From contig NVTL01000006.1 of the NCBI GenBank assembly GCA_002401565.1, forward strand, positions 10,451 to 20,695: 10,245 nucleotides of DNA, written 5' to 3'. A program made the position numbers and the translations under genes. Numbering within the stretch: position 1 is the stretch's first letter; each line of letters starts with the position of its first letter. The notes beneath the pieces were generated by a model. The model was not told the DNA's origin. It worked only from the letters and a program-made list of their open reading frames with translations, and did not search any database. The stretch comes from Rhodospirillaceae bacterium (lineage in GTDB: Bacteria > Pseudomonadota > Alphaproteobacteria > Rhodospirillales > Magnetovibrionaceae). Below are positions 2,078-10,245 of the stretch, in pieces.

Positions 2078-2401
2078 GTTGTTTTAGCCAAGATCAAATG
2101 CACTCCGGATTACCCCTACGTCATTTTAGGCACGTTCGAGGGCCAACACTTAAAAGACCTGTAGCGCCCTTGGCGGCGTATCTGTGGGAAAGCTGAATTA
2201 GGTGATTTGCGCATTCATGACTTGAGGCATTCGTTTGGATCGTTTGGTTTGGCGAGCGGGTTAAGTTTTGCTGAGATTGGAAAGCTACTTGGGCATTCTC
2301 AAGTGCAGACTACAGTACGTTATGCACATTTAGCAGAGGAAATCTCTACGGATGCCGCGAATAAGACCGTTAAATACATTGGGATCGCAATCGACAAATA
2401 A
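2078..2401 (+). pseudogene. Tyrosine recombinase (phage-type integrase) C-terminal remnant, broken by an amber codon
   Basis: One continuous frame reads VVLAKIKCTPDYPYVILG, then GQHLKDL, then a TAG at 2162-2164, then RPWRRICGKAELGDLRIHDL and RHSFGSFGLASG. Integrases of this type have a coding residue (often Q, CAG) at the point of the TAG, so one base change explains the break. The catalytic core of box II is kept: the H and R of HDLRH, the H of LLGHS, and the presumed nucleophilic tyrosine of RYAH near residue 40 of the distal part. The N-terminal arm-binding and core-binding domains and the first catalytic arginine are missing, since a full-length protein has about 400 residues. The piece therefore cannot recombine DNA. 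It marks the next-door module as part of an integrated, now immobile element. A TTG at 2207 could restart translation but would give only the last 64 residues. Confidence 0.85.
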
Positions 2402-2520: not shown

Positions 2521-3705
2521 ATGATTAAAATTAATACTGACTACTCTTTTGCTGATTGCGAGAAACTTATCGAGCTTTGTGGAACCTCTCAGTCGCAGAA
2601 TGCCGAGTTAGAACTCGCAACAAATATTCGCCTAGCTCAATATCCAGGAGGAGCTACATCACTAGCACAAGCACTTATCACCTGGGCGCGCCGACACGAA
2701 TCACCACGGCTGGTCATTTATGCCGGGGCAAAAGGAGGTGAGGCCACTATTCGAAAATTTACGGATCGGCTACACGGTTTAGTCGCTACGATGATGGCAT
2801 CAGAAGTACTCGCCACAGACCGCCAGACTTCCGTCCGGAAAGTTGCTTATTCGGATGCCCGTCACCGAATTGAGAACATGAACGACGGGAAGTTATCCGA
2901 AACAGCGCGAGGTGTAGGTACTAGCCTTATATGTGTTGACCACAGCTCAATGGGCTACCTTCGCCCTTTATATCATAATGCTGAGGTCGAGAACCGCCTA
3001 CGCGGCGAGAGTGACTTCTTTGATTTGACACAGAAAATCCTAAATGCTTCCGTACCACAGCCCCATTGCAAAAAAATCACGCATCAGGACACCACAGCCA
3101 TTGCAGCAATCCTGAAAGAATTGTTTTCTAATACCCACGACCATGCACGACACGATTTTAACGGAAGATTCTATAAGAAATCAGTCCGTGGCATACACAC
3201 AGTATTTCATTACGTTGACCCTGATCGTATCGACGAGGTCGCTTGTGGGTTGCCAATGCTTGCGGCCTATCTGAAGCAGCACATCAATGGTTGGCGTGGA
3301 CAACACTTACAGTTCCTCGAGCTTTCAGTATTTGACAGCGGTCCTGGCCTTGCTACTAGGGCATTGCAAAAACCGCTTGTCGACCTTTCTCTGGAAGAAG
3401 AAATCTCTGCAGTTAAAAGATGTTTCCTAAAGCATGTATCATCAAAGGAGAGGTCAACAGATGGCCTTGGCTTGTATCGGACTATGGGACTCCTGAAAAA
3501 TAGGCTCGGGTATATTCGCCTTCGGACAGGCCGACTATCGTTGTGCAAATCCTTTCCCCCAGAAAGTGGAGGATCGACTGAGACAGAACTCTTACCTGAA
3601 GACTTGCAACTCGTTGATGGCACGAATGGTAATGACGAACCTGAGGAAATGCCTTCGGTTGATGGCGTAGTTGTGACTATCCTCTTACCGATTGGGAGAG
3701 CGTAG
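2521..3705 (+). CDS. GHKL-type (histidine-kinase-like) ATPase, first gene of a two-gene module
   Basis: This 394-residue soluble protein carries a GHKL ATP-binding fold in its second half. The N box is LKELFSNTHDHA at residues 198-209 (E200 as likely general base, N204 as Mg-binding Asn). The G1 box is DSGPG at 272-276 and the G2 box is DGLGL at 314-318, followed by a LGYIRLRTG strand at 329-337 and a closing VVVTILLPI strand near the end. An insert of about 60 residues separates the N and G1 boxes. Residues 1-180 match nothing I know. No DHp helix with a phospho-accepting His precedes the ATPase, and there is no receiver, HAMP or membrane part, so this is not a classical sensor kinase. It is closer in layout to standalone GHKL ATPases (Hsp90, MutL, MORC-like). 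The second gene starts 2 bp after its stop, so the two are translationally coupled and their products probably work together. An acidic Gly/Ser-rich linker (345-380) precedes the last strand. Function unknown. Confidence 0.8.
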   Translation: MIKINTDYSFADCEKLIELCGTSQSQNAELELATNIRLAQYPGGATSLAQALITWARRHESPRLVIYAGAKGGEATIRKFTDRLHGLVATMMASEVLATDRQTSVRKVAYSDARHRIENMNDGKLSETARGVGTSLICVDHSSMGYLRPLYHNAEVENRLRGESDFFDLTQKILNASVPQPHCKKITHQDTTAIAAILKELFSNTHDHARHDFNGRFYKKSVRGIHTVFHYVDPDRIDEVACGLPMLAAYLKQHINGWRGQHLQFLELSVFDSGPGLATRALQKPLVDLSLEEEISAVKRCFLKHVSSKERSTDGLGLYRTMGLLKNRLGYIRLRTGRLSLCKSFPPESGGSTETELLPEDLQLVDGTNGNDEPEEMPSVDGVVVTILLPIGRA

Positions 3706-3707
3706 GA

Positions 3708-5924
3708 ATGAGCACTTTATTTCATTTCCGCTTTAAACCCGAAGGGTCCACACAGGCCTCCGCCCTCGTTATATTTTGTCCTCAAGAAGACATTGTGGAG
3801 CAGGACCTCTGGGATGCAATTAACGAGGATGTCGGCGTGAACCTGCGGCCAGACCTCGTGTACTTTTTCGTTAGAGGGGATCACTTCGATAAAGTACGTG
3901 ATCAAATGCGAGAACTTGCATCCAACAAAACACAATGGCGTATAGATCCGAGCACCACCCCGATAGGAGTGATCTCCTTCGACAAGCACGGTCAGTTGGC
4001 CAAATCAAAGCGGCTCCTTGATCTCGGACCAGACATGTCAAAAGCGACGTTCGATTCCATCAAAAAAGATGGGGTTCTAGACGTTTTCGTAAAACGAAAC
4101 GGTCTCTTATGCCCCGGCAAGACAGTGCATTACATCCATCCATCGGGCCGTCATTCTCGCGGTTTTATGCGTACTGCGAATATTCTCATCCACGGTCCTG
4201 AAGTAACATTTTTAGCAATGTGTCTATTGCAACATCTTGGGAACCTTTGTCATTACCTTTGGATTGACACGTCTTCGATTGCCAGTATTCCCTACGCAAT
4301 GATCACTCTTCGCCAAGGCATGGACTCAAACTTCAAGGTGCCTACTGTTAATAGCTTTTCATCGTACGATGGCTTAGATAAAACAAGGTTCGAGCGTCAG
4401 GAAGGATCTCTCGTTCTTATTTCTGCCACAACCAGCGGCAATCTTGCACGGCGCATGATAGAAAAAGGATTTCAAACGACAAATGTCGTGACGCTGTTTT
4501 CTCTTGCATTAAACTCCACTGGCTTAACCCTACTCTGTGACCTTTCCAACGAGAAAAAAATAAACCCGTTGGGAGAATTTTCTGCCACTAAAGAATTCAC
4601 GGCTGCAGACTGCCCAATGTGTCAAGAAGGCTCTAAGCCTATGAGGTTTGTCGGTGACCAGTTCCTCGCAGACGCAATTTCTTATGAGCCTTACACGATC
4701 CTTGCAGCAGATTCACCGCTAGGTTTGAGCAAGTTGATGGACAAATACTCAGGACAAAATATATTCCAAATCAAGGCGTCCAATCATGGTGATGACTCTG
4801 CCAACAAAATTTGGGTCGACTTATTGAAACTTTGTAGCATGAACACCTTTCAAGATGAAATTACTCTATTTGCAGACAGGTATGTTCCTCTTTCAACATC
4901 TTTAATTGTGCACTTGGATACCCCCGGATGTAGTCAACTCGCGGAAAATATCCGTGACCATCTTGGAAAAAATTTAACTTCCCCTCCCACCGTCAAGGCA
5001 TCTAAAGATATCTCAACGCTTAAATCAGAAGATTACCCAGGTGGTGTCGTAATCGTGTCCAGTTGCATCGGCTCAGGCGCAAGCCTTCAGAGTGTAAGCC
5101 AAGACTTGAGAGCCCTCTTCAAAACTCAACCTCGCGTATACATGGCTCCTTTTTCTAAATATTCTCATACTCTCCGTTACCAAACTCTCACTAAAGACCT
5201 CAAGCATAATAGCCCAAGTTTTAATCACGAAGTAGCAGTACTGAATCGTCTAGTCCTACCAAAACTACCAATCAACTCTTCATGGGCGCGTGAACGCGCT
5301 TTTCTTTTAAAGTGGATGGAAAAACTTGAAATTTCATCACAAGACGAAACTCTTGCTAAAGTAGGTGACCGGATTGAAACACTATCAAACCTTGCCACGG
5401 GTGCTGCCAACAAGCTATTTTGGCCATCTCTTGAGTGGAATGAGCTTCATCTGGAACCGACATTTGCATTCTGGTCTACGTTCAATTATGCGGATCGCCA
5501 AATTTCACAAGCTGACGTATTTATCACAATCTCAAGTGTTCTTGAAAACTTGAGAGCTGGAAAAACCCCTAAGGTTCATCATACGAGTGCCTATCAAACA
5601 CTGCTTTCGCCAGCCTGCTTCGGACGCTTCAATGATGGCGTAATCCAGGCTTCGTTGTTACGTATTGCATTGCCACAAGAACTCAACTACGGCGCAACCA
5701 CGGTAATTAGCGAGGATATGGCAAACCTAATAGATAAAATGATAAAGAACTGGAACAATTCTCAAGGCGAAGCTTGCATAGAATTTCTTATTGCACTTGG
5801 AACAAAAAACATGACATTAGCACCGGAACACCTTCACAGAATTCTCATCACACCCAATGGGGCACCGCAATTACTAACGGAACTTATAAACTTTTGCCAT
5901 GAGACCCTACTGCCCGCTCCCTAG
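3708..5924 (+). CDS. Large protein with tandem phosphoribosyltransferase-like regions, second gene of the module
   Basis: This is a 738-residue protein I cannot place in a named family. Two regions look like type I phosphoribosyltransferase (PRTase) folds. In the first, SGRHSRGFM (146-154) resembles the substrate loop of orotate PRTase, and SLVLISATTSGNLARRM (234-250) sits where the PRPP loop would be. In the second, GVVIVSSCIGSGASL (446-460) has the same pattern of a hydrophobic strand and a Gly/Ser/Thr-rich loop. In both, the acidic pair of active PRTases (as in VVVDDVxTTG) is replaced (SA and SS), suggesting ligand binding without standard transfer. A CPMC pair (302-305) lies between them and may bind metal, though no clear second Cys pair follows. 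Residues about 520-738 look helical with no known motif. There is no signal peptide or membrane segment. The ATG at 3708-3710 is preceded by GGGAGAG inside the end of the upstream gene. The PRTase call rests on motifs only and should be tested by fold prediction. Confidence 0.65.
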   Translation: MSTLFHFRFKPEGSTQASALVIFCPQEDIVEQDLWDAINEDVGVNLRPDLVYFFVRGDHFDKVRDQMRELASNKTQWRIDPSTTPIGVISFDKHGQLAKSKRLLDLGPDMSKATFDSIKKDGVLDVFVKRNGLLCPGKTVHYIHPSGRHSRGFMRTANILIHGPEVTFLAMCLLQHLGNLCHYLWIDTSSIASIPYAMITLRQGMDSNFKVPTVNSFSSYDGLDKTRFERQEGSLVLISATTSGNLARRMIEKGFQTTNVVTLFSLALNSTGLTLLCDLSNEKKINPLGEFSATKEFTAADCPMCQEGSKPMRFVGDQFLADAISYEPYTILAADSPLGLSKLMDKYSGQNIFQIKASNHGDDSANKIWVDLLKLCSMNTFQDEITLFADRYVPLSTSLIVHLDTPGCSQLAENIRDHLGKNLTSPPTVKASKDISTLKSEDYPGGVVIVSSCIGSGASLQSVSQDLRALFKTQPRVYMAPFSKYSHTLRYQTLTKDLKHNSPSFNHEVAVLNRLVLPKLPINSSWARERAFLLKWMEKLEISSQDETLAKVGDRIETLSNLATGAANKLFWPSLEWNELHLEPTFAFWSTFNYADRQISQADVFITISSVLENLRAGKTPKVHHTSAYQTLLSPACFGRFNDGVIQASLLRIALPQELNYGATTVISEDMANLIDKMIKNWNNSQGEACIEFLIALGTKNMTLAPEHLHRILITPNGAPQLLTELINFCHETLLPAP

Positions 5925-6017: not shown

Positions 6018-6187
6018 TGGCAAGCCCCCAATTTTCCAGACGCCTTGGGCCTTCAATTTTTGTGATCTTTAAAATCTATTGGCGACAACATTCCGTTGTT
6101 ACCATTCTTTCTTTTTGGGTTGTAGAGAAGCTCAATATAATCGAACACATCTTGACGCGCATCTTTGCGGGTTGCGTATAACAGCGT
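6018..6187 (-). mobile_element. IS3-family insertion sequence remnant (one end plus transposase tail)
   Basis: The piece holds the last codons of an IS3-family transposase on the minus strand and, about 13 bp after its stop codon, a terminal-repeat-like sequence. Read on the plus strand that end is TGGCAAGCCCCCAATTTTCC followed by AGACGCC, with the TGxxx..CCCC style of IS3-family ends. The other end and most of the transposase are gone, and no matching repeat is visible on the sbcC side, so the element is immobile. It occupies most of the 303 bp between the PRTase-like gene and sbcC. The rest (5925-6017) is AT-rich and shows no clear terminator hairpin or gene. Confidence 0.65.
6053..6187 (-). 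pseudogene. IS3-family transposase (OrfB) C-terminal fragment
   Basis: The frame reads YATRKDARQDVFDYIELLYN, then PKRKNGNNGMLSPIDFKDHKN and a TGA at 6055-6053. The DVFDYIExxYNxxRxHxxxGxxSPxxF pattern is the hallmark C-terminus of IS3-family DDE transposases (the part just after the last catalytic residues). Here the usual H after KRK is N. Only about 44 codons remain. The same frame stays open upstream into sbcC, but residues there are not transposase-like, so the junction is near 6187. It cannot be active. Confidence 0.75.
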
Positions 6188-6227
6188 CGGCAAAGGCTGG
6201 ACTATATTAAGGGTCTGATTGAGACGG

Positions 6228-9200
6228 CTACCTTGTGAGCACATGACTGCCATTGACTGACTTTTCAATCTGAAACCCATTGGGAATGATTTGTTGGACA
6301 AGCTCAACATGAGAAATCAGGCCAACAGCACGACTTTGCCCAACTAAATCTTGAAGTGTCTGTAGTGCTTGATCCAGCGTTTCGGAATCCAGAGTACCAA
6401 AACCCTCATCAATGAAAACGGTATCGAGGTGGATGCCCCCGTTGAGACTTTCTACGACATCAGATAGGCCAAGAGCCAACGCGAGTGCCGCTAAAAAAGT
6501 CTCGCCACCAGACAGCGATGACGTGTCGCGGGAGCGACCTGTATGAATATCGTGCACCGCAATCCCTAGTCCACGTCGGCCGGATCCCTTTGTATCATCT
6601 TGCGCGCGTTCAAGTGTATATTGTCCACTCGTCATAGGTCTGAGACGGAGGTTGGCTGCGTCGAGTACCCGATCAAACATTGAAGCAATCGCAAATGTTT
6701 CAAGTTCGACTTTTTCATCATTGTGTCCGTTAAATGATGAAGCAACGGCCCCAAGGGGGGCGAATGCAGCTTCAGCTTCTTGGATCTTCTCGAGTGTGTC
6801 TGCAATACTTTCTTCCACACTAACTAAATGATCAGTGCTCGCCATTTTTTGTGCAACATCTCTAGAGGCCTGTTCCTTAGTTTCAATGGCTTGTTCGTTT
6901 GCGGCTTTAAGACCTTCTATATTCGGTCGGGTGGTATCTTTGATTGCTGACTTGGCGCGCTTGATCCTGTCCTTGGCTGCGGCGACATCATCATTGTAAC
7001 TGCGTATTGCTTGCTCCAGTGATTGGATGTCCGGGATATGTGCTTTATGCGCCTTGTACTGCTCGAGCGTCAGACCATTATCTTTGAGTCGCTGAGCAAG
7101 GACTGTTTCAGCTGACACAAGGGCTTCATGAGCTTTCCGATGATTGTTCTTAGAGCTTTCCTCGTCTTTGTTTGCTGAAATCACGGCCTCACGAGTTTTT
7201 TGTTCAGCCTCGACAGCCTCTTTGTGCGCAGTCTCTCGTTTCTCAATGTCATCATCGACGGCCTTTAGAGCCGTTTCTAAAGCCATATGGCTTCGAAGTG
7301 CTTCAGGAACCGAAGTCAAATGGCTTTCATAGGCTTGCTTTGCGACAGCAGCATCTGTTTTGAGTTTGTCTCGGTTCGTGCGCGTGGCTTCAAGATTTAT
7401 TGAGGAATCGGCAATCCCTCTTTCTAGAGCATCAATAGCTTCGGCTAATTCTTTAGCATCTACGATGGGTCCAAGCGCTATTAGCTGCCCATGTACACTG
7501 GCCAGTTTGCTTTCGAGATCCTCAACAGAATCCTCCGGCTTAACTAGCAGCTGAAGTGCGGCTTGACGTTCTGTGAGAGTTGCTTGTGCAGCTGAAAGGT
7601 CACAGTTTGCTTCGCTTTCATTTTGTTGTGCCTCTTCAAAGTCATCCCTTGCACTTTCGAACGCTTGGTTGAGCCCAGCACTTTGCGCATTGCCTTTCGC
7701 GGGGGTTGGGTGCTCGGATGATCCGCATACAGGACAAGGATCTCCAGATGAAAGTTTCTCCGCAAGGTGCAGTGCTTGAATGTTGGCGAGAGCCGCCTCT
7801 GCGAGATCGTATTCGATCTTAGCAGCTTCGACGGATTCAACCGTGGTCTCCTGATCTATTTCTGCTTCGTGGACAGCATTTGTACCCTTGGTGAGATTAT
7901 TTGACGCTGCTTCGTGTTCGCGGGCTTTAGTAAGAGCATCCTTAACTTCACCCAGTTGTTTCGACAGGTGATCGTGTTGCGTTTTATTCTCTTCAGCAGT
8001 TTTTAATGTGGTCTGCTTGCTGGCAAGGTCCAGCGCCGCATTTTCATGTTCCCTTGCCGCTGATGCATAAACATCCTCAGCAGTATTGGCATCATCTTCG
8101 GTAGCCACCACGGCCGCATTCAGTTTTTTTGATTGTTCCAATGTCGCTTGGTGTCGCTTTAAAGCACCACGACGTTCTCGCAAAGTTTCCATCTCATGTG
8201 CTTTGCCCCGCTCCTGTGAAAGGGACTGGGCAGCGGCATTCGCGGTGGATTTAGCAATGCCATGAGCCGTAATTGCCTCTTGTTCTTCATGTTCGCTGGA
8301 TTTGACGACCTCTCGCGCTACTTCGGTTGCGTTGTCAACATCGACAATGGTTTGGGCCAGTTTTGCACCGCCAAGTTTGATGTCGATTTCATGCATCTCG
8401 GTCGTTTTGGCTTCAAGCTCTCGTAAAACTTTTCCTGCGGTGCCATGTTCAATAAATGCCTTTTCTGTGTCCAGTGCGTTAGCTAACTGTTTTTCGGTGA
8501 AAAGTGCCTTGCTTTGCGCCTCCTTGGCGGTTTTTTCGCTTGCTTCCTGTTCGACCCTTGCCATTGCGATGCCTTCGATCAGGGCATCTGTCGTTTCAAA
8601 GCCATGGTGCTCGAGACTGCTCTGACAGGCGCGCCGATCAGCCAGAATTTTATCCTCTACGGCTTTCGCGTCTTCCTTCATCTTTTGGGCAAGACGTTTG
8701 TACAGAGATACATCGAACAACTCGCGCAGGATTGCCAAACGCTCATTGGTTTTCGCCGTTAGGAAGGTTTCGAATTTCCCCTGAGGTAGCAGAACGATTT
8801 GTCGGAATTGTTCCGCTCCATAACCAAGCCGTTGAGAAAGTTCCTCCTGAACATCCTTTGTCTTTTTCTCAGCAATAATCTTTCCGGTGTTCTCAGATGA
8901 AATTTCATCAACGGAAATGCCGGTTACATCGAACAACCAGGCACTGTGTCTTTCCTTCGTCTCACCGTCACCCTTTAAGGCTTTTCTCATTTGTTCTGGT
9001 CGACGACGAACAAGGTATCGCTTTGTGCCAATTTCGAATACGAGCTCGACTTCAGTCATGAGGTCAGGATGAGCATGGTGCGATCGAAATGTTGTAGGGT
9101 CCTGCCCACCTTTCGCCGACTCTCCGAAAAGTGCAAATGACATTGCACTGAAGATCGATGACTTTCCCGATCCCGTAGGGCCATAAATTCCAAAGAGCCC

Positions 9201-9284
9201 GGCCTCAAGGGCCTCTCTCAGATCCACGACTTCACGTTCCGCATAGGGGCCGAAGGCCTGCATGGTCAGTCGCAAAGGTCTCAT
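6228..9284 (-). CDS. sbcC: SbcC, ATPase subunit of the SbcCD nuclease
   Basis: This 1018-residue SMC/Rad50-type ATPase powers the SbcCD complex, which opens and cleaves DNA hairpins and processes double-strand ends in the cytoplasm. The Walker A motif is GPTGSGKS at residues 35-42. A QIVLLPQGKFETFL Q-loop region follows at 162-175. Two long Ala/Glu/Lys-rich coiled-coil arms flank a zinc hook CPVCGSSEHP at 517-526, close to the middle of the protein as expected. The ABC signature is LSGGE at 924-928, Walker B is DTVFIDE at 954-960 and the D-loop follows at FGTLD (962-966). Length and order are complete for the family. The ATG at 9284-9282 overlaps the sbcD stop as ATGA and is preceded by a strong AGGAGG, so translation is coupled to sbcD. 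The gene ends about 40 bp from the IS3 remnant and runs convergent to the two-gene module. Confidence 0.97.
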   Translation of the reverse strand: MRPLRLTMQAFGPYAEREVVDLREALEAGLFGIYGPTGSGKSSIFSAMSFALFGESAKGGQDPTTFRSHHAHPDLMTEVELVFEIGTKRYLVRRRPEQMRKALKGDGETKERHSAWLFDVTGISVDEISSENTGKIIAEKKTKDVQEELSQRLGYGAEQFRQIVLLPQGKFETFLTAKTNERLAILRELFDVSLYKRLAQKMKEDAKAVEDKILADRRACQSSLEHHGFETTDALIEGIAMARVEQEASEKTAKEAQSKALFTEKQLANALDTEKAFIEHGTAGKVLRELEAKTTEMHEIDIKLGGAKLAQTIVDVDNATEVAREVVKSSEHEEQEAITAHGIAKSTANAAAQSLSQERGKAHEMETLRERRGALKRHQATLEQSKKLNAAVVATEDDANTAEDVYASAAREHENAALDLASKQTTLKTAEENKTQHDHLSKQLGEVKDALTKAREHEAASNNLTKGTNAVHEAEIDQETTVESVEAAKIEYDLAEAALANIQALHLAEKLSSGDPCPVCGSSEHPTPAKGNAQSAGLNQAFESARDDFEEAQQNESEANCDLSAAQATLTERQAALQLLVKPEDSVEDLESKLASVHGQLIALGPIVDAKELAEAIDALERGIADSSINLEATRTNRDKLKTDAAVAKQAYESHLTSVPEALRSHMALETALKAVDDDIEKRETAHKEAVEAEQKTREAVISANKDEESSKNNHRKAHEALVSAETVLAQRLKDNGLTLEQYKAHKAHIPDIQSLEQAIRSYNDDVAAAKDRIKRAKSAIKDTTRPNIEGLKAANEQAIETKEQASRDVAQKMASTDHLVSVEESIADTLEKIQEAEAAFAPLGAVASSFNGHNDEKVELETFAIASMFDRVLDAANLRLRPMTSGQYTLERAQDDTKGSGRRGLGIAVHDIHTGRSRDTSSLSGGETFLAALALALGLSDVVESLNGGIHLDTVFIDEGFGTLDSETLDQALQTLQDLVGQSRAVGLISHVELVQQIIPNGFQIEKSVNGSHVLTR

Positions 9285-10245
9285 GAGTGCTCCTCCTGAG
9301 CCGTCAATTCTGTCAGGCTCTCGCTAATGAGGTTCAGTTCTTTTGTGCTTGCCTCTTCTCCTCGCACATGTGCAAAAAAGTCATGTATGACCTCCATGGG
9401 GTCGTCCAAACTGGCTTGCGTAGAGCCAGTCGTTTTCAACTGCGATCCTTGTTCGTCGCGCTCATAAGTTAGCTTTAAGGCATGGGGGTAATTCTCACGA
9501 ATTCGGCCCATGGGATCAATCAGGGCCCCCTTATCGGTCAGTACGATCTCGATGAAATCATCTGACGGTGCTTCTGCCGCCTTAGCAGCGAGTTCTGCAA
9601 GAGACCCTTTCAAGGTTCGTACGGCTCGCAGCGGTTTGAATGGCAATTGCTCCGTAGATAACGATCCATCGGAGGCTAGTTCCACGAGCGTCATGGACTT
9701 TTCGGTTTCAGCCTCATCAAAACCGAAGGCAAGCGGAGAACCGCTATACCTAATATGATCTGAACCTGCATGTTGGGGGCTATGTAGATGACCAAGAGCC
9801 ACATAATGAGCACCATCAAAAGCATTGGCTGGAACAGTTTCAACACCACCAACGGCTAGACGTCTCTCACTTTCGCTCGGATAGGCGTTGGTGACAAATG
9901 CATGAGCAATAATAACCCATCTTGCGTTGCTCGGCACATGGGGACGAGCCGCACTTATTTGTGCAGCAAGCACATCGGCAGGGGTGGAAATCTTGGTGTC
10001 ACCAAAACATTCACGGGCTGAAAACTCATTGCCGAACGGCAAGGCTGAAAAGGCAACGGGGCCATGCTCGTCGTCAATGATCAAAGGCGTTTCGTATGCG
10101 TTCAATGGTCCTCTGATCAACACCCTATTTCGGTCTGCAAGGGCAGCATTGGAGGCTATCCGGTCGCCAGAGTCATGGTTGCCTGCAATAAGCACAATCG
10201 CGCAACGCGTTTCAGAATAGACTTTTTGAATGAATGCATTGAACT
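9281..10245 (-). CDS. sbcD: SbcD, nuclease subunit of SbcCD, 5' end outside the window
   Basis: This is a calcineurin-like metallophosphoesterase, the Mre11-type exonuclease/endonuclease partner of SbcC. The frame is open to the right edge, and the visible part has 320 residues. Reading in from the edge, it begins FNAFIQKVYSETRCAIVLI, directly followed by AGNHDSGDR, which holds the GNHD metal-binding motif. Further motifs are WVIIAHAFV (metal-binding His) and the GHLHSPQ motif near the family's GHxH. The first motifs (the DxH of the N-terminal DWHLG block and GDxxD) are missing because they lie beyond the window, not because the gene is damaged. A GTG at 10195-10193 is an internal Val, not the start. 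The C-terminus is normal and overlaps the sbcC start by 4 bp (9281-9284), giving a sbcDC operon. The promoter is outside the window. Confidence 0.95.
   Translation of the reverse strand, partial: FNAFIQKVYSETRCAIVLIAGNHDSGDRIASNAALADRNRVLIRGPLNAYETPLIIDDEHGPVAFSALPFGNEFSARECFGDTKISTPADVLAAQISAARPHVPSNARWVIIAHAFVTNAYPSESERRLAVGGVETVPANAFDGAHYVALGHLHSPQHAGSDHIRYSGSPLAFGFDEAETEKSMTLVELASDGSLSTEQLPFKPLRAVRTLKGSLAELAAKAAEAPSDDFIEIVLTDKGALIDPMGRIRENYPHALKLTYERDEQGSQLKTTGSTQASLDDPMEVIHDFFAHVRGEEASTKELNLISESLTELTAQEEHS

Follow-up and report, generated by a model that had tools for sequence, protein, structure and literature searches.

A mobile GHKL ATPase and tandem phosphoribosyltransferase-like gene pair belongs to the catalogued phage defence candidate PDC-M65

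Introduction

Phosphoribosyltransferase (PRTase) proteins have a place in bacterial defence: they have been put forward as probable effectors, next to DprA (PMC9122126) and in retrons (PMC12548924), and as present in other defence systems with their mode of action unknown (PMC9122126). A further source of candidates is the PDC series, PDC standing for phage defence candidate (excerpts of PMC11514479 and PMC12548924). Excerpts of PMC11811056 term PDC systems unpublished candidates and state that some of them later proved identical to named systems, so that PDC-M65, the candidate considered here, may also bear an overlooked name. In this study we analysed 10,245 nucleotides of a Rhodospirillaceae bacterium (assembly GCA_002401565.1, contig NVTL01000006.1, positions 10,451–20,695; the window), which carry two coupled genes, A and B, encoding a predicted GHKL ATPase and a tandem PRTase-like protein. 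An earlier, sequence-only reading had taken the pair for a possibly undescribed conflict or defence module, an interpretation that our analysis partly supports: the pair is a new member of the catalogued candidate PDC-M65, uncharacterised as far as found.

Results

Gene A (2521–3705) encodes 394 residues and gene B (3708–5924) encodes 738 residues, both on the plus strand and separated by 2 nt. Among the profiles of PADLOC-DB 2.0, A matches PDC-M65A over residues 2–392 of 394 (E 1.3e-42), while B matches PDC-M65B (model PDLC04765) over residues 1–716 of 738 (E 1.3e-133). The pair is thus not unrecorded, as the sequence-only reading had supposed, since the database holds models for both genes. 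Five further relatives of A and five of B also match these models near end to end (10/10). In the window, both component models are matched by adjacent genes on the same strand, and A and B are likewise adjacent in 77/80 relatives; adjacency as a rule of PDC-M65 is our assumption, the comparison having been made with the models of the hidden Markov model library. The window B scores 445 bits against PDC-M65B, compared with 761–1024 bits in nine genomes (the fetched records being Bacteroidota), which places it on a distant branch of PDC-M65.

Other resources are less informative. A has no significant Pfam match and no NCBIfam match, the sole Pfam match of B has an E value of 0.12 and B has no NCBIfam match, and no PDB sequence matches B at E<=1. 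For A, the PDB search yielded two weak hits, with E 0.09 and 0.26, which we set aside. The PDC-M65 entry of the PADLOC library carries no description, a literature search for the string PDC-M65 found no paper, and none of the literature retrieved on GHKL or HATPase proteins with PRTases and defence was recognised as the A–B pair. In the excerpts of the DefensePredictor paper (PMC13092281), HATPase and PRTase occur in figure legends, where they are not identifiable with A and B. With a PADLOC-DB entry present and no described function found, the module is catalogued but, as far as found, uncharacterised.

The sequence of A carries the three motifs of the GHKL superfamily, as had been read from the letters. 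Specifically, the N box spans residues 200–209 (3118–3147, plus strand), with E200 in 77/78 and N204 in 78/78 aligned sequences; the G1 box DSGPG spans residues 272–276 (3334–3348, plus strand), with D272, G274 and G276 in 78/78; and the G2 box GLGL spans residues 315–318 (3463–3474, plus strand), with G315, G317 and L318 in 78/78. The N-box Glu and Asn, the DxGxG of G1 and the GxG of G2 are thus each found in 77 or 78 of the 78 sequences. A confident structural model gives A the GHKL (Bergerat) fold, and the closest solved fold is SpoIIAB. The best-supported description of A is a predicted ATP-binding GHKL switch of the SpoIIAB or GHL-ATPase kind. The lists of fold matches are taken up by the GHKL domain of A and the PRTase domains of B, and we make no known-fold claim for residues 1–130 of A or residues 1–130 and 521–738 of B.

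B, for which the sequence-only reading had proposed two PRTase-like regions, indeed contains two such domains, one recognised by profile and the other by modelled fold. Domain 1 (residues 131–295; 4098–4592, plus strand) is orotate-PRTase-like, matching PyrE with P 8e-6 (8 PyrE sequences, 55 columns) or P 0.0017 (30 PyrE sequences, 131 columns). We infer its PRTase nature from this weak profile similarity alone. Domain 2 (residues 336–520; 4713–5267, plus strand) adopts a PRTase fold in the confident AlphaFold2 model of B (predicted local distance difference test score, pLDDT, 92.8), while its comparison with the PyrE profile is not significant (P 0.066). The comparison of the two domain profiles with each other is borderline (P 0.017, with 1/40 shuffles lower). 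The closest solved fold for B is orotate PRTase. Between the domains lies a linker (4611–4664, plus strand) with a CxxC motif (C302 and C305, each in 79/81) and a GDQF motif (residues 316–319, F319 in 81/81). A C-terminal region (residues 521–738; 5268–5921, plus strand) is helical in the model and has 22/218 columns conserved at a level of at least 90%. Across 81 diverse sequences 14 positions of B are invariant, 7 of them in domain 1 (H141, F153, D187, F217, S219, S239 and A240) and 5 in the C-terminal region.

Both domains lack the acidic pair of the loop that binds phosphoribosyl pyrophosphate (PRPP). In domain 1, the PRPP-loop-like segment LVLISATTSGNLA (4410–4448, plus strand) has Ser-Ala (S239, A240) in place of the Asp/Glu pair, which is absent in 81/81 aligned B sequences. 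The corresponding segment of domain 2 (5049–5087, plus strand) is degenerate in the 81-sequence alignment, an acidic residue standing at position 451 in 1/81 and at position 452 in 4/81, and at both in 0/81. Measured against type I PRTases, B thus has the fold and not the PRPP loop with its acidic pair, which rules it out as an ordinary PRTase and makes PRPP chemistry by B, envisaged as one option in the sequence-only reading, unlikely. A Pfam scan of B and six relatives gave no PRTase match; this also applies to the PRTase-CE class of conflict effectors named in the sequence-only reading, for which the library may lack a profile. Foldseek also listed Brr2 and viral helicases for B; a superfamily 2 helicase was rejected, the matches having root-mean-square deviations of ~16–30 and long gapped alignments, and they probably reflect two tandem alpha/beta domains in a shared arrangement, not homology.

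A and B are coupled and inherited together. We fetched 80 loci carrying B, the best 80 of 92 relatives, from named genomes; judged by title, most belong to the Proteobacteria or Bacteroidota, and Actinobacteria, Acidobacteria and others are represented singly. In 77/80 loci A immediately precedes B on the same strand; of the other three, two begin at a contig end (L004, L055) and one has a shortened B (L053). A possible B start lies <=30 nt from the A stop in 73/77 pairs, a 4-nt overlap being the commonest arrangement (34/77). Independent searches of 385 genomes of the class with each protein (E<=1e-3 for B, E<=1e-5 for A) matched an identical set of 5 genomes, own genome included, with the genes adjacent. 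Among 42 genomes selected through their B, from 42 of the 80 loci, each A match has an adjoining B, second copies too. Co-occurrence was thus complete in both samples, the reverse of the rarity that would have counted against the sequence-only reading. The A and B trees, built from 72 of the 78 pairs in which both proteins are near full length, correlate with r 0.87 (0/2000 permutations as high; species relatedness uncorrected). A third gene of the system was sought by clustering 437 flanking proteins and rejected, no family occurring in >3 loci. As a separate observation, Maribacter aquimaris carries the pair twice, on separate contigs (L028, L030), the copies being identical at 3329/3426 bases.

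The pair lies in a defence-gene context. In its own genome, a complete Wadjet set JetABCD (JetA E 2.6e-141, JetB 9.3e-62, JetC 1.5e-287, JetD 6.6e-108) starts 5.4 kb past the end of B. For the relatives, we considered the two nearest genes per side at 70 of the 80 loci, leaving out near-duplicates recognised on visual inspection of titles and coordinates (L010, L027, L030, L034, L070, L072 and L074) and the loci where no A was detected (L004, L053 and L055). A simple greedy rule, not a gene finder, picked the flanking open reading frames; it missed the thyX gene of L006 (see below), and one edge frame of L080 was dropped (130/131 kept). At E<=1e-10, the 130 and 131 flanking proteins match 219 and 283 PADLOC families, compared with 32 families for 131 control proteins located >50 kb away on the same contigs (131 of 160 candidate frames, a random sample of regions in 40 of the 42 genomes). 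Among the first 25 families listed for each flanking set are type I restriction-modification, mad, Aga_TIR, GajA, LmuB, ThsA, SoFic and AriA models. The 25 listed of the 32 control families are for the most part helicase-type (BrxHI, Dpd, Cas3 and HamB) and mad models. In a test by direct count, HsdM (PF02384, E<=1e-15) lies <=10 kb from the pair in 6/42 genomes versus 0.21 expected (Poisson P 9e-8, with rounded genome sizes).

The pair is also mobile and sporadic in distribution. It is present in 3/199 genomes of the order, own genome included, and was not found in 4 other genomes of the genus or 13 other genomes of the family, several of them incomplete. Plasmids carry relatives too: 12 records match, 10 of them over no less than 60% of B, from 8 genera; these 10 were inspected, and the other two match 10–14% of B. 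By product name, 4/10 plasmid loci have defence-type neighbours. Pseudomonas aeruginosa plasmid pBJ86 (L165:10839–20821) has annotated Qat anti-phage genes directly downstream of the pair and integrase genes on both sides; plasmid p3 of Rhizobium NZLR1 has TIR, dGTPase and multiubiquitin/ThiF genes, an Agrobacterium plasmid multiubiquitin/ThiF/UvrD genes, and a Spirosoma plasmid ThiF and nuclease genes. The relics that the sequence-only reading saw on either side of the pair are present in the window: the C-terminal piece of a tyrosine integrase with an in-frame stop (2081–2401, plus strand; the part beyond the stop matches Pfam PF00589 with E 3.8e-10) and the C-terminal piece of an IS3-type transposase (6053–6310, minus strand; Pfam rve_2, E 1.5e-5). 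We claim no enrichment of integrases around the pair. Together, these findings support its proposal that the two genes are closely linked, mobile and set in a defence-island context.

To the left of the pair, the contig is collinear with that of a relative (G554, 84.6% identity) only as far as window position 982. Beyond this breakpoint G554 has tRNA-Leu and then another gene, whose counterpart in our genome stands at the very start of contig C4 (90% identity). With tRNA-Leu at the breakpoint, an insertion of the pair region beside a tRNA gene is likely, though not proved, as the assembly breaks there; within the window, ARAGORN detected no tRNA gene. A 33-base hairpin-like stretch at window positions 1819–1851 matches G554 (91%) between its methyltransferase and tRNA-Leu genes, which suggests that YaeQ (1130–1678) was inserted or lost in an event of its own, independent of the remaining island.

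To the right, a 12-kb block of sbcC, sbcD, a WYL gene and jetABCD (contig C2:16691–28715, in L152–L153) is 95% identical to another genome of the genus, G591, and ends at window position 6241, the window holding its left part (6241–10245). The best G591 match to the window's methyltransferase is only 59% identical. From these identities, the block looks like a recently exchanged defence block. sbcC is usually regarded as housekeeping; here (6228–9284) it was found in only 2/17 other genomes of the family (90% and 41% identity; several genomes incomplete), and so seems to be part of the variable region.

A thyX gene, coding for an FAD-dependent thymidylate synthase, adjoins the pair in 4/80 loci (L005:7894–8832, L006:7880–8815, L074:7894–8823 and L002:12278–13195; L005 and L074 are near-duplicates) and in 3/10 plasmid loci (L163, L166 and L167), all Hyphomicrobiales. 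It lies upstream of the pair except in L002. No thyX was found in 40 control loci (0/40), which were shorter and mostly from other orders, or in the first 60 kb of our own contig. Its presence in 4/80 loci of one order only led us to reject it as a third component, while as a neighbour it could be a sign of pyrimidine metabolism.

Discussion

An anti-phage function of the pair is probable on the above evidence. The fuller reading, a mobile two-gene anti-phage system of the PDC-M65 type in which A is an ATP switch and B its obligate partner with a ligand pocket, we hold to be evenly balanced between right and wrong. Under this reading, A would change conformation on binding ATP, and domain 1 of B would keep a conserved pocket and a phosphate-binding-like loop, the two acidic residues required of a PRTase having been lost. 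B would most likely bind a ligand, a phosphorylated ribose or a nucleotide, that changes in level or form during infection, ATP binding or hydrolysis by A would set or reset B as silent or active, and the active complex would then halt the growth of the phage or the host. We infer the physical complex, the ligand, the trigger and the outcome. A more specific sensor model remains doubtful: the GHKL ATPase may set the state of a tandem pseudo-orotate-PRTase that reads pyrimidine or PRPP status as a sign of phage takeover of nucleotide synthesis, the dead salvage-enzyme fold being either the sensor or an effector with new chemistry in its invariant pocket.

Several observations weigh against an anti-phage system of this kind. 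A tblastn search of B against 50,697 phage records gave no match, on which ground residence of the pair in phages is rejected, and a single DNA query in E. coli (B of the Pantoea eucrina copy), a limited test, gave none either. No phage experiment was found for any PDC-M65 member, and B contains no effector (nuclease, NADase or pore) by Pfam. The retained ligand pocket draws on conservation and the weak profile similarity of domain 1. As for the surroundings, 36/42 genomes have no HsdM within 10 kb, 6/10 annotated plasmid loci have no defence-type gene within 10–12 kb by product name, and the neighbours of many loci are ordinary genes; the PADLOC tallies are of families rather than proteins, so that one HsdM can match many models, and each lists its first 25 families. 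The tree correlation, too, lacks a correction for species relatedness.

The pair might instead be a toxin–antitoxin or plasmid- or island-addiction module, in which B would be toxic, silenced by A, and would persist by stabilising the mobile element. With 394 and 738 residues the proteins are long for a toxin–antitoxin pair, and a typical antitoxin is unlike A, whose GHKL boxes are intact. Two coupled genes, some of them on plasmids, would suit such a module, as would PRTases acting as the probable effectors described beside DprA and in retrons (excerpts of PMC9122126 and PMC12548924). Clustering with defence genes speaks against it, yet toxin–antitoxin action and abortive-infection defence are not exclusive; overall we consider addiction unlikely. 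A regulator of stress or nucleotide metabolism, for example SpoIIAB-like partner switching that reads pyrimidine or thymidylate status and travels only incidentally in variable regions, would agree with the closest solved folds of A and B and with the thyX neighbour in Hyphomicrobiales. Such a regulator appears quite unlikely, given the enrichment of defence genes and a sporadic occurrence (5/385 genomes of the class, and 0/17 relatives in the family, several incomplete) that is not housekeeping-like.

A last alternative keeps B catalytic: invariant H141, D187 and S239-A240 would replace the acid pair in an active transferase of new chemistry, which would modify a nucleotide, a protein or a nucleic acid once licensed by A. 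The 14 invariant positions in 81 diverse sequences, 7 of them in domain 1 and 5 in the C-terminal region, are what such an enzyme might show, but no sequence match to a solved structure or family offers a precedent and the similarity of domain 1 to PyrE is weak, which leaves this the least probable of the three. If the anti-phage system outlined above is correct, the composition of a widely scattered candidate system would be explained, and a first concrete mechanism to examine would be an ATP-driven switch joined to a catalytically stripped nucleotide-enzyme fold. In that case the B family, which combines invariant residues with the loss of catalytic acids, might reveal if defence PRTase proteins sense or make nucleotides. 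The anatomy of the pair makes the mechanism testable.

Comparison with known systems

Among GHKL ATPases, the matches of A to the anti-sigma factor SpoIIAB, CckA and the CA domains of other histidine kinases exclude its extra N-terminal alpha/beta part (~residues 1–130), and its partner is B, whereas theirs is a sigma factor or a response regulator. B differs from PyrE and other type I PRTases by its tandem domains, its missing PRPP-loop acidic pair and its long extra regions. As in the DprA + PRTase system and in type III retrons with a PRTase effector, described in excerpts of PMC9122126 and PMC12548924, a PRTase protein stands beside a regulatory partner in a defence setting; that partner is a GHKL ATPase here, versus DprA in the former and a reverse transcriptase in the latter. 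Neither DprA nor a reverse transcriptase is among the six window proteins scanned by Pfam, and no retron RNA match above the gathering score of Rfam was found in the window, where two Rfam matches far under their gathering scores were dismissed as chance. The closest counterpart is PDC-M65 itself, the sequence model of a candidate system: both window genes fit its two models near full length, and the relatives keep the same gene order and spacing.

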